From NCBI GenBank assembly GCA_029821755.1, contig JALGSV010000022.1, positions 1 to 64,000 of the forward strand: a stretch of DNA of 64,000 nt, in the 5' to 3' direction. The stretch comes from Candidatus Zipacnadum vermilionense. Lineage in GTDB: Bacteria; Armatimonadota; Zipacnadia; Zipacnadales; Zipacnadaceae. Shown here in pieces: positions 2,985 to 52,370 of this stretch (its first letter is position 1; every line of letters begins with the position of its first letter). The notes under the pieces are model-generated. The model worked only from the letters and a program-made list of their open reading frames with translations, was not told where the DNA came from and did not search any database. The translations under genes and the position numbers were made by a program.

Positions 2985-3500
2985 CTACCTCCTGCTCATT
3001 TCCCACCGGTCGTACATGTACCGCCGCATCGCCAGCCCCCATCGCGGCACCCGTAGCCCCACCATCACGAATAGCACCAACCCCGCCCCCAGGAACATCG
3101 TGAAGTTCTGCACCTGGCCGGTTAGGAGAAACGCCACCAGTCCGAAGATGACGACCGACTCCGACAGCGCCAACTGCAGAATCAGCCGCTTGCGCGCCTC
3201 GGCCGGCGCCATCCGCTTCGGGATCTGCGCCCCTAGCGCCACCACCAGGAACGCCGCCGCCGCCAGGCCTCCCAGCACATACAGCAGCGTCTGCCCCGTC
3301 GCAGCGTCCCTGACCGGCACCGTCACCAGCGCCACCAGTACGCAGTACGCCAGCGCGCTCATGAAGAAGGCGCCGGTCAGCACGTACATCGTCGCTAGCC
3401 CCGCCCGCAGCTCCCCCACCGGGAAACCGCACGACTCGCATCGGGCCGTCGGACTGCCGCCCGCTACTGACGCGTCGCACCCCGGGCAGGTGACTAGCAC
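2985..3500 (-). CDS. Zinc-ribbon membrane protein of unknown function
   Basis: 171 residues. The N-terminus holds two CxxC knuckles (CPGCD near residue 5 and CESCGFPVGE near residue 21) that would bind one zinc. About four hydrophobic segments follow, near residues 37-60, 72-92, 108-128 and 133-150. The GTG start at 3500 overlaps the hisS stop by 7 bases, with GGGAGA upstream inside hisS, so translation is probably coupled. No enzyme motif was seen. The layout, a cytoplasmic zinc ribbon followed by membrane helices, is common among uncharacterised small membrane proteins. The gene is real on overlap, spacing and composition; its function is unknown. Confidence 0.7.
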   Translation of the reverse strand: MLVTCPGCDASVAGGSPTARCESCGFPVGELRAGLATMYVLTGAFFMSALAYCVLVALVTVPVRDAATGQTLLYVLGGLAAAAFLVVALGAQIPKRMAPAEARKRLILQLALSESVVIFGLVAFLLTGQVQNFTMFLGAGLVLFVMVGLRVPRWGLAMRRYMYDRWEMSRR

Positions 3501-4780
3501 GGTTCGTTCTCCCGCTTCAGCCGCGACACCAGCCCCCCTCGCGGCAGCGTCTCCTGCTCCCCGCTCGCCATATCCCGGAGCGTAACGGTATCCGCCGCCG
3601 CCTCTTCCTCCCCGATAATGACCGCCCAGCGGAAGCGTTCCTTGTCAGCGAAACTCAGTTGCGCCCGCAAACTCCGGCGGCGGTAGTCCACCTCCGCCGG
3701 ATGCCCCGCCTGACGCAGCGCCTGGCACAGCCCCAGCACCGGACGCCAGGCCTCCTCACCCAGCGCCACCACCAGCACCCCCTGCCGTTGGGTAGCGCAG
3801 GCTTCCAAGCCTGTGGCCTTCTGGGCCGCCTCCTGGGCGATCAGCACCCGCTCCAGGCCTATCCCGATCCCCACCGCCGGTGTCGGCGGCCCGCCGCACT
3901 GCTCCACCAGCCCGTCATACCGCCCGCCTCCGCCGATGGAATCCTGCGCTCCCAGACCCGGTGCGACGAACTCAAACGCGGTCTTGGTGTAGTAATCCAG
4001 CCCCCGCACGATCCGCGGCTCCAGCGTGTAGGGAATCTCCAGCGCCTGCAGCGCCGCCTGCACTCCGGTGAAGTGCTCTCCGCACTCCTCGCACAGCATC
4101 TCCACCGCGCTCGGGGCCCCGGCGGTGATTTCCCGGCAGACCGGCGACTTGCAATCCAGCAGCCGCAGCGGGTTGTCCGCATACCGCCGCCGGCAATCCT
4201 CGCACATCTCCCCTAATCGTTCGGCCACCTGCGCCTTCAGCCGCGCCAAGTGCTGCGGTCGGCAGACCGGACAGCCCACCGAGTTGAGCAACAGTGTCAC
4301 CTGCGTGATCCCCAGCGTCCGGTAGAAGCTCATGGCCAGGCTGACGATTTCCGCATCCACCGCCGGGTTGCTCGACCCCAGCGCCTCCGCTCCGCACTGG
4401 TGGTGCTGCCGGTAGCGCCCCGCCTGCGGGCGGTCATAGCGGAAGATCGGCGCAATGTAGAACAGTTTCACCAGCCGCTCGCGGTCCTGCCCCTGTAGCT
4501 TGTCCTCCAGGAAGGCCCGCACCACCGGCGCTGTCCCCTCCGGTCGCAGGGTCAGGCTCCGCCCGCCCCGGTCCTCGAAGGTGTACATCTCCTTGCTGAC
4601 GATGTCCGTTTCCTCGCCCACGGCGCGGATGAACAGCTCCGTCTGCTCGAAGCTAGGCGTGCGAATCTCCTCATACCGGTAGGCGCGGCACAGCGAGCGG
4701 TAGGCCTCTTCGGCCCGCTGCCAGCGCCCCACCTCGGCGGGGGTAATATCATTGACTCCACGAGGACGACGGTAACGCAT
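3494..4780 (-). CDS. hisS: Histidyl-tRNA synthetase with a small inserted peptide
   Basis: Class II synthetase charging tRNA-His, 428 residues, usual family length. Visible signatures are motif 2 (FRYDRPQAGRYRQHHQ, residues about 113-128), the histidine-specific RGLDYYTKTAFEF, and motif 3 (GIGIGLERVL). The C-terminal anticodon-binding domain begins at GVLVVALGEEA. Between motif 3 and that domain, residues about 321-332 (KATGLEACATQRQ) are encoded by a type A palindrome at 3790-3818 that recurs in spacers elsewhere, so the linker has probably gained a repeat insertion. The ATG at 4780 has AGGAG about 7 bases upstream. An unknown membrane protein lies 15 bases upstream and a coupled zinc-ribbon gene follows. 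Identification is secure. Confidence 0.96.
   Translation of the reverse strand: MRYRRPRGVNDITPAEVGRWQRAEEAYRSLCRAYRYEEIRTPSFEQTELFIRAVGEETDIVSKEMYTFEDRGGRSLTLRPEGTAPVVRAFLEDKLQGQDRERLVKLFYIAPIFRYDRPQAGRYRQHHQCGAEALGSSNPAVDAEIVSLAMSFYRTLGITQVTLLLNSVGCPVCRPQHLARLKAQVAERLGEMCEDCRRRYADNPLRLLDCKSPVCREITAGAPSAVEMLCEECGEHFTGVQAALQALEIPYTLEPRIVRGLDYYTKTAFEFVAPGLGAQDSIGGGGRYDGLVEQCGGPPTPAVGIGIGLERVLIAQEAAQKATGLEACATQRQGVLVVALGEEAWRPVLGLCQALRQAGHPAEVDYRRRSLRAQLSFADKERFRWAVIIGEEEAAADTVTLRDMASGEQETLPRGGLVSRLKRENEPC
3790..3818. repeat. Type A palindrome inside hisS
   Basis: The sequence GGTAGC, then the palindrome GCAGGCTTCCAAGCCTG, then TGGCC matches the intergenic type A copies at 1809 and 27649. It is read in frame by hisS as TGLEACAT between the catalytic and anticodon-binding domains, where family members vary in length. 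Confidence 0.8.
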
Positions 4781-19098: not shown

Positions 19099-20706
19099 TC
19101 ACTGCTTCGGGGCAGGATCGCCCGGTGTCCCTCCCGCCTTATCCCCTCCGCCCGGCGCCCCTCCGCCTTGCGGCGCCTTCCCGCTGGGCTTGCGCTTTCT
19201 CCGGTGCCGCGGCCCCCGGTGCCGGTGGCCTTTCTTGCGGTGGTCCTCCTGGGACTTGGCCCCCGGCGCTGCCGACTGGCCTTTCGCGGTCGGCTCGGCC
19301 GGAGCCGTCGGCTTGGCCGGCGCCTCGCTGGGCCTCGCTTCGGGCGCGGCTTGCGCCTGCCGCTCCCGGCGCCGCGACTTCCGCTCCCGCGGGCGTCGGT
19401 CCTCCCGCCGCCGCTGCTGCTGGGGGGTTCGCACCGCCACCGTGATTCCCTCCGGGAAGAGGTCCTTCTCGGTGAGCGCCGCCTCCTTCCCGTCGTCCGT
19501 ACGCACCGTGACCAATCCGGTCAGCAGGTTCCGCCCGATGACTTCCCCTGCCACCGCCCCATGCTCCACTCGCTCGCCCATCCGTGGCAGTCGCCGGTTC
19601 AGCTCCGCATACTGCGCGTGCTCATAGCGCAGGCAGCACATCAACCGGTCGCACGCCCCGCTGATCTTGGCCGGGCTCAGCGACAGCCCCTGGTCCTTGG
19701 CCAAGCGAATACCTACGCTGCAGAAGTCCCGCAGGAAGGTGGCGCAGCACAGCGGCCGCCCGCACGGCCCCAGGCCTCCGATCAGCTTGGCCTGATCCCG
19801 CACTCCCACCTGCCGCAGCTCAATCCGGCAGCGGAAGGTCTGCGCCAGGTCCCGCACCAAGTCCCGGAAATCCACCCGTCCCTCGGAGACAAACGAGAAC
19901 GTCAGCCGCTTGCCGTCCAAGGTGTAGGAGGCGTCAATTAGTTTCATGTCGAGCTTGTGCTCGGCGATCTTACCCTCGCAGGCCTTGAAGGCCTGTTCCT
20001 GCTTGGTCTCCAGGGACCGCTTGCGCCGCACATCCCCCGGCGTTGCCGGTCGCAGCAGCCGCTTGGTCGGCTCCTCTTGCCCCGGCTCCAGCCGCGTCTT
20101 CAGCGCCACGACCTCCCCGATATCCACGCCCCTATCCGTCTCCACCACCACGAAATCGCCGCTAGCCAGGGGGAAATCGCCGGAATGGAAGTAGTACACC
20201 TTCCCGCCCTTGCGGAAGCACAACCCCGCCACCTTTACACCGGCCGCCGGCCACACCTCCTCCCCCTCCGCGAGGGGCGGGCTTTCTATCCCGCCCTTCG
20301 CGGTAGCGCCGGCTTCCAAGCCTGTGTCCCCTCCCGGCTTACTCGCCGAAGCTCCAGCGAAGGCGGGTGGCGCCGGCGTCTCGCCGGTGCTCCCCTCAGC
20401 GGTGTGGTGGGCGTCCTCGCCCCCCGCGCCCTCCGCAGCAGAGCCGTTACCACCAGTGGTACCGCTCTCCAGAGCGGTGTCCCCTCCCCTCAGGGGGCAC
20501 ACCTCTCCATCTTCGCCCCCGCAGCACCCCGGGCACCCTTCCCCGGCACTGGTCTCCAGACCGGTGCCCTCCGGAAAAGCAGGCCCCGCCTCAGTGGCAT
20601 CGCTCTCCGGAGCCGCGTCCGGCTCCCCGGTGTCCCCTGCCTCTCGCCGCTGGCCATCGGGGTCTAGGTCTTCAGTTGTCTCCTCCACCACATCATCTTC
20701 CGGCAT
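19099..20706 (-). CDS. ricT: PSP1 domain protein (RicT/YaaT-like) with repeat-built N-terminal extension
   Basis: The core (residues about 160-440) matches PSP1/RicT: VAGLCFRKGGKVYYF, SYTLDGKRLTFSFVSEGRVDF, IELRQVGVRDQAKLIGG, CGRPLCCATFL, and CDRLMCCLRYEH. In Bacillus, RicT belongs to the RicAFT complex, which binds iron-sulfur clusters and affects RNA processing with RNase Y. The core cysteines are present. The C-terminus is a basic, low-complexity tail. The first 150 residues are acidic and contain six dispersed palindromes (20272-20620), read as DTALESGTTGG, TGLEAGAT and similar. An alternative GTG start at 20256 would exclude them. Its place before metG matches Firmicutes. Core identity is strong; the start is uncertain. 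Confidence 0.88.
   Translation of the reverse strand: MPEDDVVEETTEDLDPDGQRREAGDTGEPDAAPESDATEAGPAFPEGTGLETSAGEGCPGCCGGEDGEVCPLRGGDTALESGTTGGNGSAAEGAGGEDAHHTAEGSTGETPAPPAFAGASASKPGGDTGLEAGATAKGGIESPPLAEGEEVWPAAGVKVAGLCFRKGGKVYYFHSGDFPLASGDFVVVETDRGVDIGEVVALKTRLEPGQEEPTKRLLRPATPGDVRRKRSLETKQEQAFKACEGKIAEHKLDMKLIDASYTLDGKRLTFSFVSEGRVDFRDLVRDLAQTFRCRIELRQVGVRDQAKLIGGLGPCGRPLCCATFLRDFCSVGIRLAKDQGLSLSPAKISGACDRLMCCLRYEHAQYAELNRRLPRMGERVEHGAVAGEVIGRNLLTGLVTVRTDDGKEAALTEKDLFPEGITVAVRTPQQQRRREDRRPRERKSRRRERQAQAAPEARPSEAPAKPTAPAEPTAKGQSAAPGAKSQEDHRKKGHRHRGPRHRRKRKPSGKAPQGGGAPGGGDKAGGTPGDPAPKQ
20272..20334. repeat. Type B plus type A palindromes inside the ricT frame
   Basis: A type B unit (GGCGGGC, TTTCTA, TCCCGCC) is followed within 5 bases by a type A unit (GGTAGCGCCGGCTTCCAAG, CCTGTG, TCCCCTCCC). 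On the ricT strand they read as DTGLEAGAT then KGGIESPPL. Confidence 0.75.
20365..20397. repeat. Type D palindrome inside the ricT frame
   Basis: GGTGGCGCCGGCG then TCTCGCCGGTG then CTCCCCTC. It resembles the copies at 27731 and, in reverse, 50742. The ricT strand reads it as STGETPAPP. Confidence 0.7.
20452..20620. repeat. Three type C-like palindromes inside the ricT frame
   Basis: 20452-20490 is a full type C copy (AGTGG, CCGCTCTCCAGAGCGG, TGTCCCCTCCC). 20545-20575 (CACTGGTCTCCAGACCGGTG) and 20588-20620 (AGTGGCATCGCTCTCCGGAG) are diverged. They encode most of the acidic N-terminal extension. Confidence 0.65.
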
Positions 20707-22749: not shown

Positions 22750-25700
22750 CTACCCACCCACTTCCGCCCTCACTCGCGTCCCCTTCTCCGCCTGCTTCCG
22801 ATTGTACTCCGCCCTTTTCACCAGTAGCTCGGTCAACTGCTCCACCCCGCTCAGCACAAAGTCCACGTCTTTCCCCGCCGGAGCGAAGGACAGCCCCTGC
22901 TCAGTCGCGTTGGCACGAGGGAGAATCGACCGCGCCCCCTGCCGCGCTTGGCGCAGCGTCGGTTGCAGCATCCCCCGGAAGATGTCCACTTCCCGCGCCG
23001 TCAAGCGTGCCGAGGGCGCCAGCTTCACCACCAGCCGTGCGTTGTCCGACCCCACCTCCACCACGCCCGCCGCCACCGCCCGCAGCTTGAGCTTGGCGAT
23101 CCGCAACAGGTTCTCCACCGCCTCCGGCGCCGGACCATACCGGTCGCGTATTTCCTCGGAGATGCCCTGTATCTCCTCCTCGCTCTGCAGTTCCGCCAGA
23201 TGCCGGTACAGGTCAATCCGCTGCCGCTCATCCGGCACGTAGCTCGCCGGGATCACCGCCTCCACCGGTAGGTCCAGCGCCGGCAGCCCCTCCAGGTCGC
23301 TGGGCCGCTCCCCCTTGAGCGTCTTGACCGCGTCCGCCAGCATCTGCGTATATAGGTCCAGCCCCACCGAGGACATCTGCCCGCTCTGCTCGGCCCCCAG
23401 AATCTCCCCGGCCCCGCGTATCTCCAGGTCCCGCAGGGCCAGCTTGAACCCGCTCCCCAGCTCACTGAACTCCTCGATCGCCTTCAGCCGTTCTTCCGCC
23501 TCCGGCGTCATCAGCTCGGGGTACTTGTACAGCAGGTACGCATACGCTTGCCGCACCGACCGTCCCACCCGCCCCCGCAGTTGGTAGAGTTGCGCCAGCC
23601 CCAGCTTGTTCGCGTCGTCCACGATCATGGTGTTGACATTGGGCACATCCAGCCCGTTCTCGATGATCGTGGTGCACACTAGCACGTCAAACTCCTCGGC
23701 GTAGAAGGCCAACATCACCTGCTCCAGGTCCCTCTCGTCCATCTGCCCGTGCGCCACCCCCACCCGCGCCTCCGGCACCAGCCGCTGGATATGCGCCGCC
23801 ACGTGCTTGATCGACCGCACCCGGTTGTGGACCACGTACACCTGCCCGCCCCGCTCGATCTCCCGCAGCAGCGCCTGCCGGATTAGTTCGTCGTCCGTCT
23901 CCCGGACGAAAGTCCGGATCGGCAGCCGTCCCTGCGGCGGGTCGTTGATCACTGAGATCTGCCGGATCCCCGAGAGCGCCATGTTCAGCGTCCGCGGGAT
24001 CGGCGTCGCCGACAGGCTCAGTACGTCCACCTGCGCCCGCAGTTGCTTCAGCTTCTCCTTCTGCTTGACCCCGAACCGCTGCTCCTCGTCGATGATCACC
24101 AGTCCCAGGTCCTTGAACTGGATATCGCCGCTCAGTAGCCGGTGCGTCCCCACCACGACATCCACCGTGCCGGACTTGAGTCCGGCCGCCGTCCCCCGCT
24201 GCTGCTCCGGCGTGCGAAAGCGGCTGAGCATCGCCACCCCCAACGGGTAGTTGGCCAGCCGCTCCCGGAAAGTATTGTAGTGCTGCTGCGCCAGGATCGT
24301 CGTCGGCGTCAGCACCGCCACCTGCTTGCCCTCCACCGCCGCCTTGAAGGCCGCCCGGATCGCCACCTCCGTCTTGCCATAACCCACGTCCCCGCAGATC
24401 AGGCGGTCCATCGGCCGTTGCGCCTCCATGTCCTGCTTGACTTCGGCAATCGCCCGCAGTTGGTCCGGCGTCTCGTCATACCGGAAGGCATTCTCCAACT
24501 CCGCCATCCACGGCCCATCCGGCGCGAACGTGTGCCCCGGCGCCTGCTCCCGAGCCGCGTACAGTTTCATCAGCTCCCGCGCCAGCAGTTGCACCGACCG
24601 CCGCGCCTCCTTCTTGGCGGCCCTCCAGCGCAGGCTCTTCATCGCGCCGACTTCCGGCGCCGCCCCCTCACTCCCGATGTATTTCTGCACCCGGTCCAGC
24701 TGCGTCACCGGCACGTACAGCTTATCCGCCCCGGCGTACTCCAGGACCATGTACTCCCGCTCGATCCCGCCCAGCGTCTGCCGGGCCAAGCCCCGGTAGC
24801 GCGCGATCCCGTGGTTGATGTGCACCACATAGTTGCCCTCATGCAGCTCCCGCAGCGAGGTTAACGAGAAGCCCCGCTTGTACGCCGGCTCCTCCGTCCG
24901 CCGCAGCCGCCGCCAGCCGAAGACCTCCCGCCCCGTCAGCACCACCAGGTCCGCCCCCGGCACGGTGAACCCGCCCGACAGGTCCAGGTCCGCCAGGTTC
25001 ACCAGCCCCGGCTCCAGCACGGGATGCTCCCCCGGCGCTCGCAGCTCCCCCAGGCCCCGCTTGGCGAAGACTTCCTCAATCCGTTCCGGCTCGCTGGTGC
25101 ACACCAGCACCCGCTTGCCCTCGCGCTCCCAGTCCGCCAGTCCCTGCACCAGCAGCTCAAACCGCCCGCCAAAGCTGTCCACCGGCGGCGTGTTGAAGTG
25201 AACCAGCTCCGCCTGGGGCGCCCACGGTACCTCTCGCTGCAGCATGGTCAGATACAGCGTCGGCCGGATCAGCCGCGAGTGCTGCAGGTGCGCGATGACG
25301 AAGTCCTCCCAGGCCATGCACGCCGTCGCCGGTAGACGCAGATGGCTCCCTAGCTTCACCGCGCTATCGTACGCCCGCTTAACCTCCTGCTCAAACTGCT
25401 CCGCGTGGCTCTTGATCCGCACCGGCTCATCCACCACCAACACCGCGTCCTCCGGCAGGTACGCGCATAAGCAGGCCGGGCGCTCGTACAGATAGGAGAG
25501 GTAGTGCGTCAGCGAGGGATGCGGCCGCAGGTTCTCCAGCAGCTCCAGGTCCTCGCTCATCCGTTCCTTGAGCCGCTCCGCCTCCCGATGCTTCTCGCGC
25601 TCATGCAGCAAGTCCAGCTCCCGCCGGTAGGCCGACCGGATCGCCGGCAGCGACCGGTGTACCGCGTCGCGTGCCAGGAGAATCTCTCCCGCGGGCCCCA

Positions 25701-26502
25701 CCAGCACCTTCTTCACCGGCGCCAGCGACCGCTGGGTGATCGGGTCAAAGTGCCGCAGGGACTCGATCTCGTCCCCAAAGAGTTCCAGTCGCACCGGATG
25801 GGGCTCGGTAGGCGGTGAGAAATCCACGATCCCGCCCCGCGCGGAGACCTGCCCCACCTCATCCACCAGCGCTACCCGCTCATACCCCAGGTCCAGCAGC
25901 GCCTCGATCAGTTCCTCGCGCCTGATCTCCTGCCCCACTTCCAGCACCCGCCGCGCCCCGCGCAGCGCCTCCACCGGCATCGTCAGATGCAGGGCTGCCT
26001 GTACCGCCGCCACCACCACCGTCGGCTCCCCCGCCGCCAGCCGATTCAGTACCATCAACCTCTGCGCCACCTCCGCCGGCTCCGGATTCACCCCGTCATA
26101 CAGTGCAGAAGCAATCGACGGGTAAAGGAGCACTGCTCGGGTAGTGCAGGCTTGCAAGCCTGCGTCCGCGTGGGGCGGGCTTTCTAGCCCGCCCTCCCCT
26201 GCCGGGGACAAGGCACCTCCAGTGGCACCGCTCTCCAGAGCGGTGTCTCCTCCCAGCAACGCCTCCAGATCCCCCACCAGCTGCGTCGCCCTCTCCTCGC
26301 TAAAGGTCAACACCAGCGCCGTAGTCTCCGCCTCCCCCAGCAGGGCCGCCAGCAGCGCCGCCTTGCCGGCGCCACTCGGTCCTTCTACCTGGAGAGGGTC
26401 CCCCGGCGCACCCAGCCTCTCGCGCAGCCGCCGCACCTCCAGCGTCCCCTGTATCAACTCCCGTATCTGTTGTCCCAGCGCCTTATCCGGCATAGCAGCC
26501 AC
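22750..26502 (-). CDS. mfd: Transcription-repair coupling factor
   Basis: Mfd displaces RNA polymerase stalled at DNA damage and recruits UvrA. The 1250 residues exceed the usual 1150-1180. Visible parts are the N-terminal UvrB-like region (GPSGAGKAALLAALLG), the RNA polymerase-interacting segment (LREGNYVVHINHGIARYRGL is nearby as LHEGNYVVHINHGIARY), Walker A (ICGDVGYGKTEVAIRAAF), the DEEQ box (IIDEEQRFG), SATPIPRTL and the RecG-like QLRGRVGR. Residues about 84-121 (DTALESGATGG through GLQACTT) come from an A-B-C palindrome cassette at 26139-26252 and probably account for part of the extra length. The start is GTG at 26502, or ATG at 26493. Identification is secure. Confidence 0.97.
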   Translation of the reverse strand: MAAMPDKALGQQIRELIQGTLEVRRLRERLGAPGDPLQVEGPSGAGKAALLAALLGEAETTALVLTFSEERATQLVGDLEALLGGDTALESGATGGALSPAGEGGLESPPHADAGLQACTTRAVLLYPSIASALYDGVNPEPAEVAQRLMVLNRLAAGEPTVVVAAVQAALHLTMPVEALRGARRVLEVGQEIRREELIEALLDLGYERVALVDEVGQVSARGGIVDFSPPTEPHPVRLELFGDEIESLRHFDPITQRSLAPVKKVLVGPAGEILLARDAVHRSLPAIRSAYRRELDLLHEREKHREAERLKERMSEDLELLENLRPHPSLTHYLSYLYERPACLCAYLPEDAVLVVDEPVRIKSHAEQFEQEVKRAYDSAVKLGSHLRLPATACMAWEDFVIAHLQHSRLIRPTLYLTMLQREVPWAPQAELVHFNTPPVDSFGGRFELLVQGLADWEREGKRVLVCTSEPERIEEVFAKRGLGELRAPGEHPVLEPGLVNLADLDLSGGFTVPGADLVVLTGREVFGWRRLRRTEEPAYKRGFSLTSLRELHEGNYVVHINHGIARYRGLARQTLGGIEREYMVLEYAGADKLYVPVTQLDRVQKYIGSEGAAPEVGAMKSLRWRAAKKEARRSVQLLARELMKLYAAREQAPGHTFAPDGPWMAELENAFRYDETPDQLRAIAEVKQDMEAQRPMDRLICGDVGYGKTEVAIRAAFKAAVEGKQVAVLTPTTILAQQHYNTFRERLANYPLGVAMLSRFRTPEQQRGTAAGLKSGTVDVVVGTHRLLSGDIQFKDLGLVIIDEEQRFGVKQKEKLKQLRAQVDVLSLSATPIPRTLNMALSGIRQISVINDPPQGRLPIRTFVRETDDELIRQALLREIERGGQVYVVHNRVRSIKHVAAHIQRLVPEARVGVAHGQMDERDLEQVMLAFYAEEFDVLVCTTIIENGLDVPNVNTMIVDDANKLGLAQLYQLRGRVGRSVRQAYAYLLYKYPELMTPEAEERLKAIEEFSELGSGFKLALRDLEIRGAGEILGAEQSGQMSSVGLDLYTQMLADAVKTLKGERPSDLEGLPALDLPVEAVIPASYVPDERQRIDLYRHLAELQSEEEIQGISEEIRDRYGPAPEAVENLLRIAKLKLRAVAAGVVEVGSDNARLVVKLAPSARLTAREVDIFRGMLQPTLRQARQGARSILPRANATEQGLSFAPAGKDVDFVLSGVEQLTELLVKRAEYNRKQAEKGTRVRAEVGG
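26139..26252. repeat. A-B-C palindrome cassette inside mfd
   Basis: In order: type A (GGTAGTGCAGGCTTGCAAG, CCTGCG), type B (GCGTGGGGCGGGC, TTTCTA, GCCCGCC) and type C (AGTGGCACCGCTCTCCAGAG, CGGTGTCTCC). The same order recurs at 26619-26740, 370 bases upstream of this copy. It is read through in frame by mfd. Confidence 0.8.
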
Positions 26503-26618
26503 GCAAACTCACCCAGCCCGAGGGCAGGCCCTCGGGCTATCAGCAAATACCATGCTTGTGTGTATGAACCACGTCCAAGGATCGGACGCCGCCCCGAGAG
26601 GGGCAGTTCCCCTCTGAA

Positions 26619-26740
26619 TAGCGCAGGCTTCCCAGCCTGCGTCCCCTCCCTGGTACGGCGGGCGTTCTCGCCCGCCGTTCGCTGCGCTCAACAACTTACG
26701 CCACTAGTGGCACCGCTCTCCAGAGCGGTGTCCCCTCCCC
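26619..26740. repeat. A-B-C palindrome cassette upstream of mfd
   Basis: The spacer 26503-26781 contains no gene. It holds type A (26619-26650), type B (26653-26678, GGCGGGCGTTCTCGCCCGCC) and type C (26705-26740), then TTCGACT-like heptamers at 26741-26775. The A-B-C order matches the copy inside mfd. Confidence 0.8.
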
Positions 26741-26781
26741 ACTTTCGGCTCCCGACCTTCGACTTGCGGCTTCCCCTCCCC

Positions 26782-27630
26782 CTACCCGACCTTCTCCAAC
26801 CTCCCCTTCACCTCCGCCGCAAACGCGTCAATCCTCTGCTGCACCAGTTCCCCCGGCGTCAGCGTATCGTCCTGCACCAGCGGCGTCATATCCATGGCAA
26901 AGGTCAGCCCTGTCGCCACGTCTACGTCGTGGGTCGCATGGTAGGTCGCATGGGCCTTCCGCCGCCCCATCGTCGCCAGGTCATAGCGCTTCCCGCCGCA
27001 GATCTGCGAGTCGAACACTCCCAGCAGCGCCATCTGCAGGTTCTCATGTCCACTGCAATCCAGGGGCACCTTATCCTCGTCGGTCAGCCAGTCCAGATCC
27101 CGCCACACCTCCCCGCCCCACAGCACCTGCGGCCGCCAGTCCTCCGGCAGCTCGCGGATCGCCTGAATCGTCCGCAACGCCACCGCCACATGCGTATCGT
27201 GCTTGTCCGCCAGGTTGTGCGTATAGACGATCTGCGGCCGGGCGGCGATCAGGATCGCCTTGATGTCCTCCACCACGGCCGACTCCGCCGGGTCTTTCAC
27301 CATCGCGCTGGTGAAATCCAGCAGCCCCTGGAAACCATACTCTCCCAGCACCGCCGCCTTCTTCTGCTCCTCCCGCCGCACTACTTGCATCTGCTCATCG
27401 GTATAGTCGGCGTATAGGTCATCCCGGGACGAACCCGCCCCATTGGTGACCACGACGCCCCCATACCACCAGTCCTCCCGCCCAAACCCCTGCAGCACCC
27501 CGTGCCCGCTCAGGATTTCCAGGTCATCCTGATGCGCCCCGATCCCCAGATGCGTAGTCCGCGCCATCGCCTCCCCTTCCGGCTTCCCGTCAGGAACGTA
27601 TAGCTCTGCGCCCGCCATGTGCAACTGCAT
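26782..27630 (-). CDS. PIG-L (LmbE-type) deacetylase
   Basis: 282 residues from the ATG at 27630 (MQLHMAG), with GGAGG 9 bases upstream. A longer frame to 27789 only translates palindromes and is rejected. The zinc-binding N-terminal motif is HLGIGAHQDDLEIL (consensus AHPDD, here AHQDD), and the later ligand region is IVYTHNLADKHDTHVAVALR. PIG-L/LmbE enzymes remove N-acetyl groups from GlcNAc-type substrates, for example in mycothiol or glycolipid synthesis, or from diacetylated chitobiose. It follows a ROK-family gene on the same strand, which fits a role in amino sugar use. The actual substrate is not evident. Confidence 0.85.
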   Translation of the reverse strand: MQLHMAGAELYVPDGKPEGEAMARTTHLGIGAHQDDLEILSGHGVLQGFGREDWWYGGVVVTNGAGSSRDDLYADYTDEQMQVVRREEQKKAAVLGEYGFQGLLDFTSAMVKDPAESAVVEDIKAILIAARPQIVYTHNLADKHDTHVAVALRTIQAIRELPEDWRPQVLWGGEVWRDLDWLTDEDKVPLDCSGHENLQMALLGVFDSQICGGKRYDLATMGRRKAHATYHATHDVDVATGLTFAMDMTPLVQDDTLTPGELVQQRIDAFAAEVKGRLEKVG

Positions 27631-27648
27631 TGTGAAGATCCTCCATCC

Positions 27649-27760
27649 GGGTAGCGCAGGCTTCCCAGCCTGCGTCCCCTCCGCGTGGGGCTTAGCGCAT
27701 CCCGATGCGCAGGGCTTCCCGCCGTCCCCTCCCGGTGGCACCGGTGTCTCGCCGGTGCGG
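27649..27760. repeat. A-E-D palindrome cassette
   Basis: Type A (27649-27680), a unique type E (27683-27730, AGCGCATCCCGATGCGC within the B-type flank GCGTGGGGC) and type D (27731-27760, GGTGGCACCGGTGTCTCG, CCGGTG). It lies in the spacer between the ROK gene and the PIG-L start. Confidence 0.75.
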
Positions 27761-27786
27761 GGTGGGGCTGCTATGGCCCCCCTCCC

Positions 27787-27822
27787 CACTTTCGACTTAC
27801 GACTTTCGACTTACGACTTCCC
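27787..27822. repeat. TTCGACT heptamer array at the ROK gene 3' end
   Basis: Four to five imperfect repeats of the type CTTTCGACTTACGACTTTCG. They overlap the last codons of the ROK gene, which read as GKGKS. Related arrays lie at 26741, 29225 and 29680. Confidence 0.7.
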
Positions 27823-29208
27823 CTTCCCCACCGCCGGCAGACTCGCCGCCGCAATCGCCTGCCCCACCCTGCGCTCCTTCTCCCCCGGCAGGTGCAGCTC
27901 AATCCCGGCCAACTCCGGGAACTCTTGCTTGAGTACCTCCTGCGCCTCGGCCAGCACGATGTCCCCGCCTTCTCCCGTGGTCACCCGGCCCATCATCAAC
28001 ACGTGCGCGAGATCGTAGAACTGCGCGTAGTAGGCCACCGCATACCCCACCCAGCGCCCCACCGTCACGTACACCTGCTTGGCCCGCTCGTCGCCCTGCG
28101 CCATGAACTCCTGCACCGTCTTGAGCTGCTCCGCCAGGTGCGCGTTCTTGTCCAGTGGTATCCCCGCCCGGTCGGCCATCCGCACCACGCCCGTCTGGCA
28201 CAGATATTGCGCCCCCACGCCGGGGTAGTTGGACCACTCGTCCACCGCCGCCCCCGGTGCCAGGTCAAAGGGTACGAAAGCCAGCTCATTCAGCCAGCCG
28301 GTGATATTCCCGTCCGCGTCCACGTAGCCTGCCGCCTCGCTCGACCCGAAGGCTACGCCCAGCAGCCGCGTCGTCTCCAGGCTCATCGCCCCCGCCAGCG
28401 CCGCCACGTCTCCGTCGTTGGCCACTTCCATCGGCGCCTCGCCCATGTCCTCCTGCACCCGCAGGAACAGGGGCCGGATCTTCTCGTCGAACGCGTCCTT
28501 TGGAATTCCCCGGAACAACGAGGCCACGGCCACGCGGTTGTTGATATAGACTCCCGCGCTGCTCACGCCGATGGCGTCGATGGTCGGCAGATGCTTGGCT
28601 GCCTCCCGCATCGCGTGCATGACGTGGTCGTAGTGGTACTGCGGGTCGCTCTGTACCTTCGGGTCCCAGGGGTACTCCTCGCTGAAGGTGACCTCTCCGT
28701 CCACCACCGCCGCCACCTTGTAGTCGCTGGCCCCAGCGTCAAACCCGATCCGGTTCCCCTCCAGATGCCGTCCCACCGACACCGTCTTCTCGTTGGCCGC
28801 CGGGACCTGGTCCACGCTTACCGTTTCCACCTGGAAGGACTTCTCATAGACCCCGCCCATGAACTCGGCGTCGAAGGCATACTCCCCGCCCGGCGCGTAG
28901 GCCTGGGTCAGGTATGCGCCAATCTGCGCCGGCCCGCCCACGACCACGCGCCAGCCCCCGCGCGCCCACAGCAGCGTCTTGACCAGCTCGGCCACGTACC
29001 GCAGGTTGGCCGAGGCCTCCGCGGCCTCGGTCGCGAACACCTCGGTCTCATACCGCGTAATCACCCCGCCCCCGCGCTCCAGCGCAAGCACTAGCGGTAC
29101 CCCCTGCCCGGAGGCCTTGACCTGCGCCCGGAACGTCCGAAACGCCGAAGCCGCCGGCCGGAAATCCGGATCCAACGGCGGAGCCAACTGAGCCTTAGGA
29201 AGCTGCAT
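27811..29208 (-). CDS. ROK-like sugar kinase or ASKHA-fold protein
   Basis: 465 residues. After an unusual 160-residue N-terminal region comes an ASKHA nucleotide-binding start (GNRIGFDAGASDYKVAAVVDGEV, where ROK kinases have GIDIGGT), then AIGVSSAGVYINNRVAVASL, EVANDGDVAALAGAMSL and LLGVAFGSSEAAGYVD. These correspond to ROK phosphate and adenosine motifs in diverged form. The CxCG zinc motif is not seen. The ATG at 29208 has AGGTGA 7 bases upstream. It lies directly upstream of PIG-L and near a canonical ROK kinase. Likely a sugar or amino sugar kinase, or a sensor that lost catalysis. Substrate unknown. Confidence 0.65.
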   Translation of the reverse strand: MQLPKAQLAPPLDPDFRPAASAFRTFRAQVKASGQGVPLVLALERGGGVITRYETEVFATEAAEASANLRYVAELVKTLLWARGGWRVVVGGPAQIGAYLTQAYAPGGEYAFDAEFMGGVYEKSFQVETVSVDQVPAANEKTVSVGRHLEGNRIGFDAGASDYKVAAVVDGEVTFSEEYPWDPKVQSDPQYHYDHVMHAMREAAKHLPTIDAIGVSSAGVYINNRVAVASLFRGIPKDAFDEKIRPLFLRVQEDMGEAPMEVANDGDVAALAGAMSLETTRLLGVAFGSSEAAGYVDADGNITGWLNELAFVPFDLAPGAAVDEWSNYPGVGAQYLCQTGVVRMADRAGIPLDKNAHLAEQLKTVQEFMAQGDERAKQVYVTVGRWVGYAVAYYAQFYDLAHVLMMGRVTTGEGGDIVLAEAQEVLKQEFPELAGIELHLPGEKERRVGQAIAAASLPAVGKGKS

Positions 29209-29224
29209 CTTCAGTCACCTCTGA

Positions 29225-29255
29225 GGTCGAAAGTGAGGAGTCGAAAGTCGAAAAC
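29225..29255. repeat. AGTCGAA heptamer array, left flank of the four-helix-bundle gene
   Basis: GGTCGAAAGTGAGGAGTCGA then AAGTCGAAAAC. It is the complement of the TTCGACT units at 29680-29812 on the other side of the gene, so the two arrays are in inverted orientation. Confidence 0.6.
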
Positions 29256-29294
29256 GGAGGGGGGCTCTGCGCCATCCCCGCTGACCGCCGGAGC

Positions 29295-29663
29295 TTACTT
29301 GGCAAGCTTTCTGTGCAGTACGCAGAGCATGCCGTCGATCTCATCTACGTCTGCGTGTAGTTCCGCAATCTGCTCCTGGTTGAGGTGGCCGAAACGGAAC
29401 GCCAGCTCCAGGAGGGTCCGCAACTCCGCCAGAGAGCCGCGGGCAATGCTGACATGGTGTCGGTATTCACCGGAGCCAAACCGGCCGGCTCCTTCGGCGA
29501 TGTTAGCCGGAACGGAGATCGCGGAACGTCTGGTTTGGTCGGTCAGGGCGAAGAGCTCATACCTGGGATAGCTCCGAGTGACCACGTGCACTGCCTCCGC
29601 AAGGTCGACCGCCTTCTGCCAGACAATCAGGTCGCGATAGCTTCGTATTTCGCTGCTCCTCAG
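29295..29663 (-). CDS. Four-helix-bundle protein (23S rRNA intervening-sequence type)
   Basis: About 123 residues: IRSYRDLIVWQKAVDLAEAVHVVTRSYP, then LTDQTRRSAISVPANIAEGAGR, then YRHHVSIARGSLAELRTLLELA. These are hallmarks of the TIGR02436/S23 family, first seen in intervening sequences of Leptospira 23S rRNA and related to Avd proteins of diversity-generating retroelements. Function unknown. The start is uncertain: a CTG at 29663 with GAGG close upstream gives family-like length, while the only in-frame ATG (29837) would translate a heptamer array. Arrays of TTCGACT units lie on both sides. It is placed between two ROK genes, with no rRNA or reverse transcriptase nearby. Confidence 0.8.
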   Translation of the reverse strand: MRSSEIRSYRDLIVWQKAVDLAEAVHVVTRSYPRYELFALTDQTRRSAISVPANIAEGAGRFGSGEYRHHVSIARGSLAELRTLLELAFRFGHLNQEQIAELHADVDEIDGMLCVLHRKLAK

Positions 29664-29679
29664 CGGATGCCTCCCCCTC

Positions 29680-29812
29680 CCGACTTCCGGCTCTCGGTTG
29701 CGGGTTCTCGGTTGCCGACTTTCGACTTCCGACTTCCCCTCCGCCACTTTCGACTTTCGACTTCCGACTTCCCCTCCGCCACTTTCGACTTTCGACTTTC
29801 GACTTCCCCTAC
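29680..29812. repeat. Large TTCGACT heptamer array
   Basis: Roughly fifteen imperfect 7-bp units (CTTTCGACTTTCGACTTCCG type) in three blocks separated by TCCCCTCCGCCA. It starts with CGGCTCTCGGTTG variants. It overlaps the last two codons of the ROK kinase gene (stop 29809) and lies upstream of the four-helix-bundle gene. Confidence 0.85.
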
Positions 29813-30759
29813 TCCCACACCAGCGCCCCCGCCCCATACGTGCCGGCGTGATTTCCTAACGCCGCCGGCACAATCTTGTTGACGTCAAACTGCGCGAAAA
29901 TACCCACGTGCTTGACCGTCCGTCGGATAGCGTCGAACAGCAATTCCCCGGTTGCCGCGATCCCCCCGCCGATGAGCACCAGGTCCGGGTCCACCAGTAG
30001 GATCGCGTTGCAGATGGCCAGCCCGATGTAATGCCCGGTCTGGTCCACCACCCGTCGCGCCACCTTGTCCCCCTGCTGGGCCGCTTGGGCGATGACGCGC
30101 GGGGTGATGGCGTTGTCGTCGCCGCCGGTCAGCTCGTCAATCAGGCTGGGGCGCCCGCTCTGCAGGCGTTCCACCGTCATGTCGATCATCGCCTGCTTAG
30201 CGGCCATCGCCTCCAGGCATCCAAAGCTCCCGCAGCCGCACCGCCGCCCGCCGGGAGCAATGGTCATGTGCCCAATCTCGCCCATCAGTTGCCGCGGTCC
30301 CCGCCGCACCTTGTTGTCCAGCACCACCCCGCCGCCCACTCCGGTCCCCAGCGTCAGCAGCAGCAGATTCTGCACCCCTCGCCCCGCCCCATAGCGCAGT
30401 TCCGCCAGGGTCGCGCAGAAGGCATCGTTGGCCACCCACGCCGGCATACCGAACGTGGCCGCGAGTCTCTCGCCCGCGTTGACGCCGTCCATGACCTCCA
30501 GGTTAGGGCAGCGGACGATGGCCCCGGTCTCCGGCACCACCTGCCCCGGCACGCCGATCCCGACTCCGACCAGCGCCCGATCCATGTGCCGACTCAGCAG
30601 GTCCTTCCCGGCCGTCTCGATAACCCCTAGCACCGCTAGGGCGTTGTCCGGCGGGGTAGGATGCGAGGAACTCTCCAGCAGCTCCCCTTCCCCCGTGAGC
30701 AGGCCCACCTTGAAGGTCGTCCCGCCCAGATCAATCCCCATTGCCACCTGCTCGGACAT
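29809..30759 (-). CDS. ROK family glucokinase-like sugar kinase
   Basis: 316 residues from the ATG at 30759 (MSEQVAMGIDLGGTTFKVG), with GGAGGG about 7 bases upstream. Classic ROK features are the phosphate-binding GIDLGGTTFKVGLL, VGVGIGVPGQV, WVANDAFCATLAE with the catalytic Asp, LLTLGTGVGGGVV, GHMTIAPGGRRCGCGSFGCLEAM with the zinc-binding cysteines, and LVLIGGGIA. Phosphorylates glucose or a related hexose with ATP. It ends inside a heptamer array and is followed by the four-helix-bundle gene. It lies 114 bases after ssb, with a strong terminator between, so it is probably expressed separately. Sugar specificity is not determinable. Confidence 0.92.
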   Translation of the reverse strand: MSEQVAMGIDLGGTTFKVGLLTGEGELLESSSHPTPPDNALAVLGVIETAGKDLLSRHMDRALVGVGIGVPGQVVPETGAIVRCPNLEVMDGVNAGERLAATFGMPAWVANDAFCATLAELRYGAGRGVQNLLLLTLGTGVGGGVVLDNKVRRGPRQLMGEIGHMTIAPGGRRCGCGSFGCLEAMAAKQAMIDMTVERLQSGRPSLIDELTGGDDNAITPRVIAQAAQQGDKVARRVVDQTGHYIGLAICNAILLVDPDLVLIGGGIAATGELLFDAIRRTVKHVGIFAQFDVNKIVPAALGNHAGTYGAGALVWE

Positions 30760-31358: not shown

Positions 31359-31880
31359 CTACCCCTCCGCCGCCTTCTCCTCCTCCGCCGGGGCCGCCTC
31401 TGCTACCGGGGCCGCCTCTGCTGCCGGGGCCGCCTCTGCTGCCGGGGCCGCCTCTGCTGCCGGGGCCGCCTCCGCTACCGGGGCCGCCTCCGCTGCCGGG
31501 GCCGCCTCCGCTGCCGGGGCCGCCTCTGCTGCCGGAGCCGGTTCCTCCGTCTTCTTCTCCGGCGGTAAGCTGAAGATCGCCTTGGGGTTGGCCAATACGA
31601 CCATCCCTCGCACGATCGGCTCGATCAGGGAGAACTGGTGCTTGACTTCCTCGGCTATCTCTCCATTGCCGTGGAAGTACATGATGCGGTAAGCACCCTC
31701 CACGTTACCATCGATGGCATAGGCCAGGCGCCGCTGCCCGAACAATTCGTCGGAGACAAACTCCCCACCTGCCGCGATCAGGGCTTCCTTGAGCAGCGTG
31801 GAGGCTTCTTGCTGCTCCTCCTCGGGGACCTTCACGTCCAGAATATACATTACTTCGTACAAAGTGGCCTCGTCGGCCAT
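31359..31880 (-). CDS. rpsF: Ribosomal protein S6 with an alanine-rich repeat tail
   Basis: 30S protein S6, partner of S18. The first 110 residues are a normal S6: LYEVMYILDVKVPEEEQQEAST, LAYAIDGNVEGAYRIMYFHG, IEPIVRGMVVLAN. A tail of about 60 residues follows, made of eight AAEAAP or VAEAAP units from an 18-bp tandem repeat (31389-31539). Acidic tails occur on S6 in some species (E. coli S6 gains glutamates), but this one is long. The ATG at 31880 has AAGGA upstream; a GTG at 31889 is also in frame. The predicted promoter lies about 100 bases upstream. Identification is secure. Confidence 0.96.
   Translation of the reverse strand: MADEATLYEVMYILDVKVPEEEQQEASTLLKEALIAAGGEFVSDELFGQRRLAYAIDGNVEGAYRIMYFHGNGEIAEEVKHQFSLIEPIVRGMVVLANPKAIFSLPPEKKTEEPAPAAEAAPAAEAAPAAEAAPVAEAAPAAEAAPAAEAAPAAEAAPVAEAAPAEEEKAAEG
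31389..31539. repeat. 18-bp tandem repeat in rpsF
   Basis: Eight units of the GCCGCCTCTGCTGCCGGG type encode AAEAAP. The valine variant appears at every fourth unit (A-A-A-V twice), so the array probably grew by duplicating a 72-bp block. Copy number may vary between strains. Confidence 0.9.
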
Positions 31881-50387: not shown

Positions 50388-52193
50388 TTAGCTGCCCGCG
50401 CGCTCCAGTTCCTTCTCCATCGTCGCGATCTTCTCCCGGATCATTTCCCCGTTGTACTTGTACCCGTGGATGTCCTGGTGCCAGCCGAGGCGGGGGTCGG
50501 CTTCCACGAGGGGTAGACACTGGCGGAGGTTGGCGATTTCGTCCGCCATGATCGCCAGTAAGGCCGGGTCGGCGGGGAGATCGCAGGGCGGGGTCAGGTG
50601 GTGCTCGGCGAGGAGGCGCTGCTGCTCGCGGTAGTGGCGGAAGACGTTGATGATTGAGGTCAACTGGTGGGCGATCATGCGGGCCACGGATAGCTCCTGG
50701 CGGCAGTGGAGGAGGGGGCCACTGTCGCGCAGGCTCGCCGCCCCGTATCGGCGAGACGCCGGTGCCACCGGGAGGGGAGACGCAGGCTTGGAAGCCTGCG
50801 CTACCGGGAGGGTCTCCAGCGCCGCGTAGTCCCGCAGGCCCGCCGCCCAGCCGTCCCGCAGCCGCGTGAAGCCCGCGATGACCTCGGCGACGGTCCACGA
50901 CTGACCGTCGGAGAAGAAGCCCTGCAGGCAGGGGGCGAGGTCGTCGCCGGGGGGATCGGCCTGCCAGGAGCGCCCGATCGGCGTGCCCGCGTAGTGCAGG
51001 GACAGCACACGGGCGGGGGCGTCGTTGTGCGGGCCATGGTAGAGCAGGGCTACCGAGAAGGGGTAGTGGGTGAAGGCGTCGCTGAACTGCTCCCAGGCCC
51101 GGACAATCGGGGCGGGGTCGGCGAGGCCGAAGTAGTCACGGGCGAGGGCGGAGAGGAAGGCGGTGCGGTCGCGGTAGCGCTCGGGGTCCTGCAGGAAGAC
51201 GCGGAGGGCGGCGGTGTTGAGGGTCAGGCGGGTGCCCATCGACCAGCAGCCGAGGAAGCCGTCTACCTCCAAGTCGAGCAGGGAGACGAAGCGCGAGTGG
51301 AGGGTCTGCAGCACCGGGACGTTGGGGACGGAGCACAGCTCGTGGGTGCAGTTGAACTCGAGCTTGGCATGAACGGGGGTGCCGCGCCGGCGGACCAGCT
51401 CGCGCGTCGCGAGGAATTGTTGACCGGGACCGACGTAGCTGAAGGCGTACTCGCCGACGTAGAGAGTGCGGCCATCCCAAGGACGGGCGCCGCCCATCTC
51501 GAAGCCGAGGAGAAGCTCGACGCCCTCCGGGAGGCGGGAAACAATCTCGGCCTGGGGGTCGGGGTACCAGTAGGCCCACTCCCAGTTCCAGGCCAGAATA
51601 CGAAAGGGTTGGGGCTGGGCGCGGCTGACCTCGGACCAGGTCTGGAGGAGCTCCAGGACGAGGTCGGCGGGCTCGCGGTCGCGGCAGCGGGGGCAGGTGG
51701 GGCCGGGCATGCCCCGGCGGGTGGCCGACTTGGACCAGCAGTGGGTGAGCGACTCGCAGGCGGTGATGAGGAGGACGCCGGCGACGCCGGTCAGGCGGGA
51801 GAAGACGCTCTCCAGGGCCTCGCGGAAGAAGGCCTGAACTTGGGGAGTGGAAGTGCACAGCGCGTAGGAGTGCCACTTCTCGACGCCGCGCAGGTCCGGG
51901 TGGTTCTGCCAGAAGGGGTCGTCCACGTCCACGCTGACGGGGTCGTTGAAGTACAGGTAGACGTCGAGACCGTGGCCGGCGGCGCGGGTGATGGTCTCCT
52001 GGAGGCGGGCCAAGCGGTCGGCGGTACCGGGGCGGTTCAACTCCGGGAAGACGGCGCTGTGCATGAGGTCGCGCAGCTCACAGAAGACCCACAGGCCCGT
52101 GAAGCCCTCGGCGGCGACGGCGGCGAAGGCCTCGTCAGAGTGGTCATCGAAGACGCGCCAGAGGCGCGGGGCGGAAGGGGAGGTGAAGGGCAT
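50388..52193 (-). CDS. Glycoside-hydrolase-like TIM-barrel protein
   Basis: 601 residues from the ATG at 52193, without a clear ribosome-binding site. No signal peptide was seen. Residues 1-350 read like a glycoside hydrolase barrel: FAAVAAEGFTGLWVFCELRDL, GLDVYLYFNDPVSVD, VAGVLLITACESLTHCW with CPRC nearby, RILAWNWEWAYWYPDP, AKLEFNCTHELCSVPNVP and VDGFLGCWSMG. The C-terminal half is helical (YREQQRLLAEHHL, HQDIHGYKYNGEMIREKIATMEKEL). Overall it resembles alpha-glucuronidase or hexosaminidase-like families without a firm match. Residues about 459-485 come from reversed type A and D palindromes (50742-50810). It ends near a small membrane gene; the sulfatase lies upstream. Confidence 0.6.
   Translation of the reverse strand: MPFTSPSAPRLWRVFDDHSDEAFAAVAAEGFTGLWVFCELRDLMHSAVFPELNRPGTADRLARLQETITRAAGHGLDVYLYFNDPVSVDVDDPFWQNHPDLRGVEKWHSYALCTSTPQVQAFFREALESVFSRLTGVAGVLLITACESLTHCWSKSATRRGMPGPTCPRCRDREPADLVLELLQTWSEVSRAQPQPFRILAWNWEWAYWYPDPQAEIVSRLPEGVELLLGFEMGGARPWDGRTLYVGEYAFSYVGPGQQFLATRELVRRRGTPVHAKLEFNCTHELCSVPNVPVLQTLHSRFVSLLDLEVDGFLGCWSMGTRLTLNTAALRVFLQDPERYRDRTAFLSALARDYFGLADPAPIVRAWEQFSDAFTHYPFSVALLYHGPHNDAPARVLSLHYAGTPIGRSWQADPPGDDLAPCLQGFFSDGQSWTVAEVIAGFTRLRDGWAAGLRDYAALETLPVAQASKPASPLPVAPASRRYGAASLRDSGPLLHCRQELSVARMIAHQLTSIINVFRHYREQQRLLAEHHLTPPCDLPADPALLAIMADEIANLRQCLPLVEADPRLGWHQDIHGYKYNGEMIREKIATMEKELERAGS
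50742..50810. repeat. Reversed D-A palindromes inside a glycosidase-like gene
   Basis: Plus strand: CGTATCGGCGAGACGCCGGT, GCCACC, GGGAGGGGA, GACGCAGGCTTGGAAGCCTG, CGCTACC. The orientation is opposite to that in hisS, mfd and ricT relative to the coding strand, so the gene reads a different peptide (VAQASKPASPLPVAPASRRY). Confidence 0.8.
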
Positions 52194-52240
52194 GGGAGGG
52201 GATTCTTCGCCTCTCGCGCAGTTTCCTTGCCGGGCGTGGA

Positions 52241-52286
52241 GCCTCACCCCCCTGCCCCCTCTCCTGGCAGGAGAGGGGGGGAGAGG
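52241..52286. repeat. CCCTCTC/GAGAGGG inverted repeat
   Basis: GCCTCACCCCCCTGCCCCCT then CTCCTGGCAGGAGAGGGGGG. It is close to the element at 22702. It lies in the spacer between the glycosidase-like gene and the sulfatase. Confidence 0.6.
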
Positions 52287-52370
52287 GAGAGAGTCAGTCG
52301 CGCGGCAGCCACCAGCGGGCGGCACGGAAAGAGCCGCCGCCACCGAGCGTGGGCACGTCGGGGGCTGTCT

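Follow-up and report, generated by a model that had tools for sequence, protein, structure and literature searches.

How does a palindrome that recurs across a genome come to lie within the coding sequence of an essential enzyme, and what kind of element is it? The hisS locus of Candidatus Zipacnadum vermilionense raises this question. It lies in a stretch of 64,000 nucleotides of contig JALGSV010000022.1, hereafter the window, to which coordinates refer unless another locus is named.

A palindrome in the linker codons of hisS

The hisS gene (window 3494-4780, minus strand) encodes a histidine--tRNA ligase (HisRS) of 428 amino acids, whose translation scores 479.4 bits against TIGR00442, the cut-off for hisS being 286.75 bits. 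Its linker codons hold a type A palindrome, a GTAG-class REP with a core at 3792-3815 and a conserved unit at about 3790-3818, on the plus strand and hence antisense to hisS. The plus strand of the core reads GTAGCGCAGGCTTCCAAGCCTGTG, which differs from the consensus GTAGCGCAGGCTTCCAAGCCTGCG at a single base. A search of the 4.39-Mb genome with the type A pattern retrieved 79 matches at three mismatches or fewer, dispersed over many contigs, and the reversed-pattern control returned 0. These counts bear out the sequence-only reading, which had taken the hisS palindrome for a copy of a dispersed repeat. It had also held that the reading frame is preserved across the palindrome, and this is the case: read in frame, the REP encodes ATGLEACAT, residues 322-330 of HisRS.

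The HisRS linker, measured from GLERVL to the first strand of the anticodon-binding domain, is exactly 16 residues long in 21 relatives (20 of the order and one of the phylum) and 20 residues long in the window species. The alignment with HisRS of E. coli and S. aureus has a four-residue gap at the linker, and more distant HisRS sequences also lack the insert residues. The REP spans about 10 codons, and the net gain of the linker is only four residues (12 nt). Because this gain is smaller than the REP, host codons were lost or overwritten, and the edges of the repeat are not clean insertion edges. The dozen or so residues that were thought to have been added are thus roughly the REP-encoded length, and the simple addition of that many to HisRS is ruled out. 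The expectation that relatives would lack these residues was correct, but not the expectation that they would do so exactly at the repeat edges.

In the AlphaFold2 model of HisRS (mean pLDDT 87.4), a helix at residues 309-323 is followed by coil at 324-334 and by a strand from residue 335. The model places the REP-encoded residues at the helix end and in the coil of the interdomain joint, where confidence is low (average pLDDT 62 for the block 321-330). This low confidence is not special to the linker, since comparably low values are found for the block 51-60 (64) and for the C-terminal end (58).

The repeat family and RAYT-like genes

The type A unit is about 28-33 nt long. In a tally of 66 copies, GTAG stands immediately before a perfect palindrome, with the first G present in 61 and the last G in all 66; the copy filter demanded the T and A, which carry no independent weight, so the evidence for the tag rests on the first and last G. 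The palindrome has the 20-40 nt length and the stem-loop that define the GTAG class. Five distinct inverted pairs occur, with spacers of 12-30 nt, and most copies lie outside genes, about 11 of 77 being judged in frame in ORFs. The family numbers 79 copies in the window species, 25 in its closest relative (G001) and three in another member of the genus (G002), with none in the 17 other genomes tested; the type A REP is confined to the genus. Relatives that bear a name are assemblies of Armatimonadota, of candidate division WS1 and of Candidatus Zipacnadia.

Further copies in the window lie on the plus strand at 1809-1832, 26618-26641 and 27651-27674, none of these three being flagged as in coding frame, and at 20303-20326 (plus; pattern match), as well as at 50781-50804 (minus), in frame in an ORF at 50391-52370 (minus) that has no Pfam match. 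The window also holds other repeats: a tandem array with an 18-nt period and several near-identical copies at 31361-31558, and short repeats rich in CGACTTTCGACTT, partly spaced by 35 nt and outside the palindrome families, at 26732-29815.

A RAYT-like ORF (L043) lies between inverted type A copies at 1266 (+) and 1876 (-), 586 nt apart. It scores 74.2 bits (E 1e-20) against NF047646 REP_Tyr_transpos, slightly under the cut-off of 80, and 20.8 bits against PF01797, under the cut-off of 23; scores of RAYT-like ORFs against the latter range from 20.8 to 22.7 bits, slightly below that cut-off. An HVH motif is visible in the RAYT-like protein. Taken with this gene between copies, the GTAG tag, the perfect palindrome and the inverted pairs identify the family of the hisS palindrome as one that behaves as a GTAG-class REP and not as a Rickettsia palindromic element (RPE). 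Another RAYT-like gene (L042, 1234-1870 of G000:C71) has type B palindromes, which bear a GTGG tag, close to either end; this suggests a further REPtron that is served by a separate REP family.

GTAG REPs and REPtrons were described by Di Nocera et al. 2013 (PMC3733652), together with in-frame copies in conserved genes, including tRNA synthetases of three species. Type A resembles them in its GTAG tag beside a short palindrome, its many dispersed copies and inverted pairs, its REP-flanked tyrosine transposase gene, and its mostly extragenic location with a minority of copies in frame in genes. Since in-frame REPs, tRNA synthetases included, were already published there, the hisS palindrome is a further example of a documented phenomenon. 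The published REPs belong to Proteobacteria, Cyanobacteria, Chloroflexi and the PVC group, whereas type A occurs in relatives of Armatimonadota, and the HisRS linker insertion with its empty-site comparison with relatives is specific to the hisS case. No report of REPs in Armatimonadetes was recognised in the literature searched, as judged by titles and abstract openings. Group 3 REPtrons, for example S. maltophilia Sm (Corneloup et al. 2021, PMC8266576), appear similar in having GTAG directly before a perfect palindrome.

The parallel with RPEs that had been drawn earlier holds in so far as both are palindromic repeats inside the reading frames of functional genes, but the closest kind is the GTAG REP/RAYT system. 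The intragenic RPE-4 and RPE-6 of R. conorii have been equated with CGTC-tagged repeats, for which no transposase was found (PMC3733652); the hisS element, unlike these, has GTAG and a RAYT-like gene, and the two are set apart by class. The inverted REP pairs with short spacers in the genome, two of them in frame in genes, resemble REPINs (Bertels and Rainey 2011, PMC3116915); the hisS copy, by contrast, is a single REP.

In-frame copies in other genes

A screen based on codon usage placed 7 of the 77 copies in a single open coding frame. After the flagged and some borderline ORFs had been read, the number of in-frame copies came to about 11, in nine ORFs; the borderline ORFs were chosen by the analyst, not blind, and coding context was judged from the stretches around the copies. 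The screen misses out-of-frame copies in genes and is therefore no measure of the rate at which REPs enter genes. Among the REP-bearing ORFs, hisS, hypF and glmM have NCBIfam matches above cut-off, and the matches of an mfd fragment, a tyrA-like, a SpoU-type and a flavoprotein ORF are below equivalog cut-offs; of the remaining two, one is beta-helix-like and one has no Pfam match.

The second conserved gene of the window to contain REPs, an mfd-like ORF (transcription-repair coupling factor; window 22750-26502, minus strand, 1250 amino acids from the first listed start), has an N-terminal fragment that falls below the equivalog cut-offs of TIGR00580/PRK10689, as expected for a fragment. Its N-terminal region contains three palindrome types together in frame, all on the plus strand between 26141 and 26255 and amounting to about 30 added residues: a type A REP at 26141-26164, which reads DAGLQACTT, a GTGG-tagged type B palindrome at 26170-26193 and a type C palindrome (repeat family D6) at 26216-26255. 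This insert is absent from 13 relatives, G001 included. The glmM insert is likewise absent from six relatives, and that of the SpoU methyltransferase from six loci of five genomes, where the linker length is variable. Insertion edges look cleaner in mfd and glmM than in hisS. Beyond hisS and these three genes, the repeat by itself points to a probable insertion.

Two genes, hypF and that of the SpoU-type RNA methyltransferase, contain inverted REP pairs in frame (L006, G000:C22:51792-51869; L127, G000:C22:56123-56192), and both share a contig with the RAYT-like gene L043. Six of the 11 in-frame copies use one antisense frame, the GLEACAT type (binomial P = 0.012 for the named frame at 1/5); this preference is not convincing once five frames and linked pairs are allowed for.

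Origin of the hisS copy and the HisRS joint

We put at roughly 85% the probability that a REP specific to the genus and dispersed by a RAYT entered the HisRS linker, with loss of host codons at a flexible joint that tolerates the change. Such a REP would be a short non-autonomous element, its dispersal most likely due to a RAYT that the genome itself encodes (TnpA-REP, a single-strand transposase of the HuH/Y1 kind), for which the L043 protein is the candidate. One copy would have entered the interdomain linker codons in a stop-free frame, displacing or overwriting host codons, and would have persisted because the joint loop tolerates changes of length and sequence; in an essential gene, an insertion that disrupted the frame or a domain would be purged. 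We infer that the added residues are neutral, and likewise infer the chemistry of the insertion. Several observations count against this account. A net gain smaller than the REP argues against a simple insertion, the RAYT-like ORFs lie just below curated cut-offs and the genome is a fragmented assembly. In addition, the hisS copy lacks the CT that precedes the tag by 5-6 bases in 30 of the 66 type A copies; it is at CT that TnpA-REP cleaves single-stranded REP in those systems (PMC8266576) by analogy with which the copies would have been moved by the RAYT.

Other linkers in the order bear on how often this has occurred. In G001, which is 79% identical, the linker is 40 residues long and carries an exact REP, in the orientation opposite to that in the window species and read as SAGFQACVT. 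In G026, of another family, it has 20 residues and contains the palindrome CGCGGGCTTTCCAGCCCGCG, which occurs 63 times in that genome at no more than one mismatch. The linker of G002 also has 20 residues, with no recognisable repeat; a REP origin of its expansion is not supported, its inverted repeat having only two matches at three mismatches or fewer there. As orientation, frame and element differ, separate events in the window species, G001 and G026 are the simplest reading of these alignments. A single REP insertion in the common ancestor of the window species and G001, later inverted, extended or partly deleted, would suit the fact that the two are congeneric and share, at one site, a single REP family. 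Their opposite orientations, different reading frames and different flanks speak against it, as does the lack of a recognisable repeat in G002 of the same genus, and G026 indicates that repeated entry happens anyway; we hold a single ancestral event to be rather unlikely.

Repeated entry could also mean that the REP has been co-opted, the added residues, or a hairpin in mRNA or single-stranded DNA, tuning HisRS activity or hisS expression. Palindromes do lie in the same linker in three species, and a hairpin of about -11 kcal/mol can form in the transcribed strand; the inserted sequences, their orientations, frames and linker lengths (20, 40 and 20) differ, however, 21 relatives do without any, and REPs occur in many unrelated genes of the genome, which fits tolerance better than function. 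Co-option therefore seems very improbable to us. Still less credible is an assembly artefact in which the repeat wrongly joined two hisS fragments of the metagenome. The assembly consists of 115 contigs, and assemblers may be misled by REPs, but hisS is contiguous and in frame on both sides, the genome has no second full-length hisS match, and the sister genome, assembled separately, also has a REP in its HisRS linker. As for a palindrome arising by chance from linker codons, the linker is short and variable and its net expansion of only four residues is no greater than in G002, where no REP is recognisable; yet agreement with a 79-copy family at all but one of 24 nt leaves this a negligible prospect, and a chance match is excluded by the empty reversed control. 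The entry of a RAYT-dispersed REP into a tolerant linker is thus the reading that we retain.

The same joint is altered in another manner in a sister genus, g2: each of the five genomes there that yielded hisS has the gene split between the two domains (loci L028, L030, L031, L032 and L034 of G011, G009, G012, G003 and G006, respectively). The first ORF terminates in NAT* or NAN*, and the second begins at an ATG that overlaps this end and lies six bases downstream of AGGAGG. This second ORF has 100-105 residues and contains the anticodon-binding domain (PF03129, E 6.6e-21 in the one tested). Its differences at third positions are about two- to fivefold above those at first and second positions, an excess that fits selection on the predicted protein. 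The product may be either two proteins or one made via frameshifting. No REP was seen at the g2 split joint, and no split histidyl-tRNA synthetase was recognised in the literature searched, as judged by titles and the openings of abstracts. Conceivably the HisRS joint is prone in this order both to repeated entry, independently by different REP families, and to breakage, as in g2, where HisRS would be made as two proteins; a linker that admits REPs may be a stage towards the division of an essential enzyme. We consider this unlikely.

Altogether, relatives of Armatimonadota are shown to carry a family of GTAG-class REPs along with a RAYT-like gene; such REPs lie in frame in essential genes, for several of which relatives provide the empty site. 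There is a warning in this, too: peptides derived from repeats, such as GLEACAT and GSAGFQAC, can turn up in protein predictions made from metagenome assemblies. Of greater interest than the REP itself are the HisRS joint, hit more than once, and the split hisS. Depending on the lineage, the joint holds a REP, a different palindrome or a break in the gene, and HisRS thus provides a natural experiment that shows which of an essential enzyme's joints can bear change.
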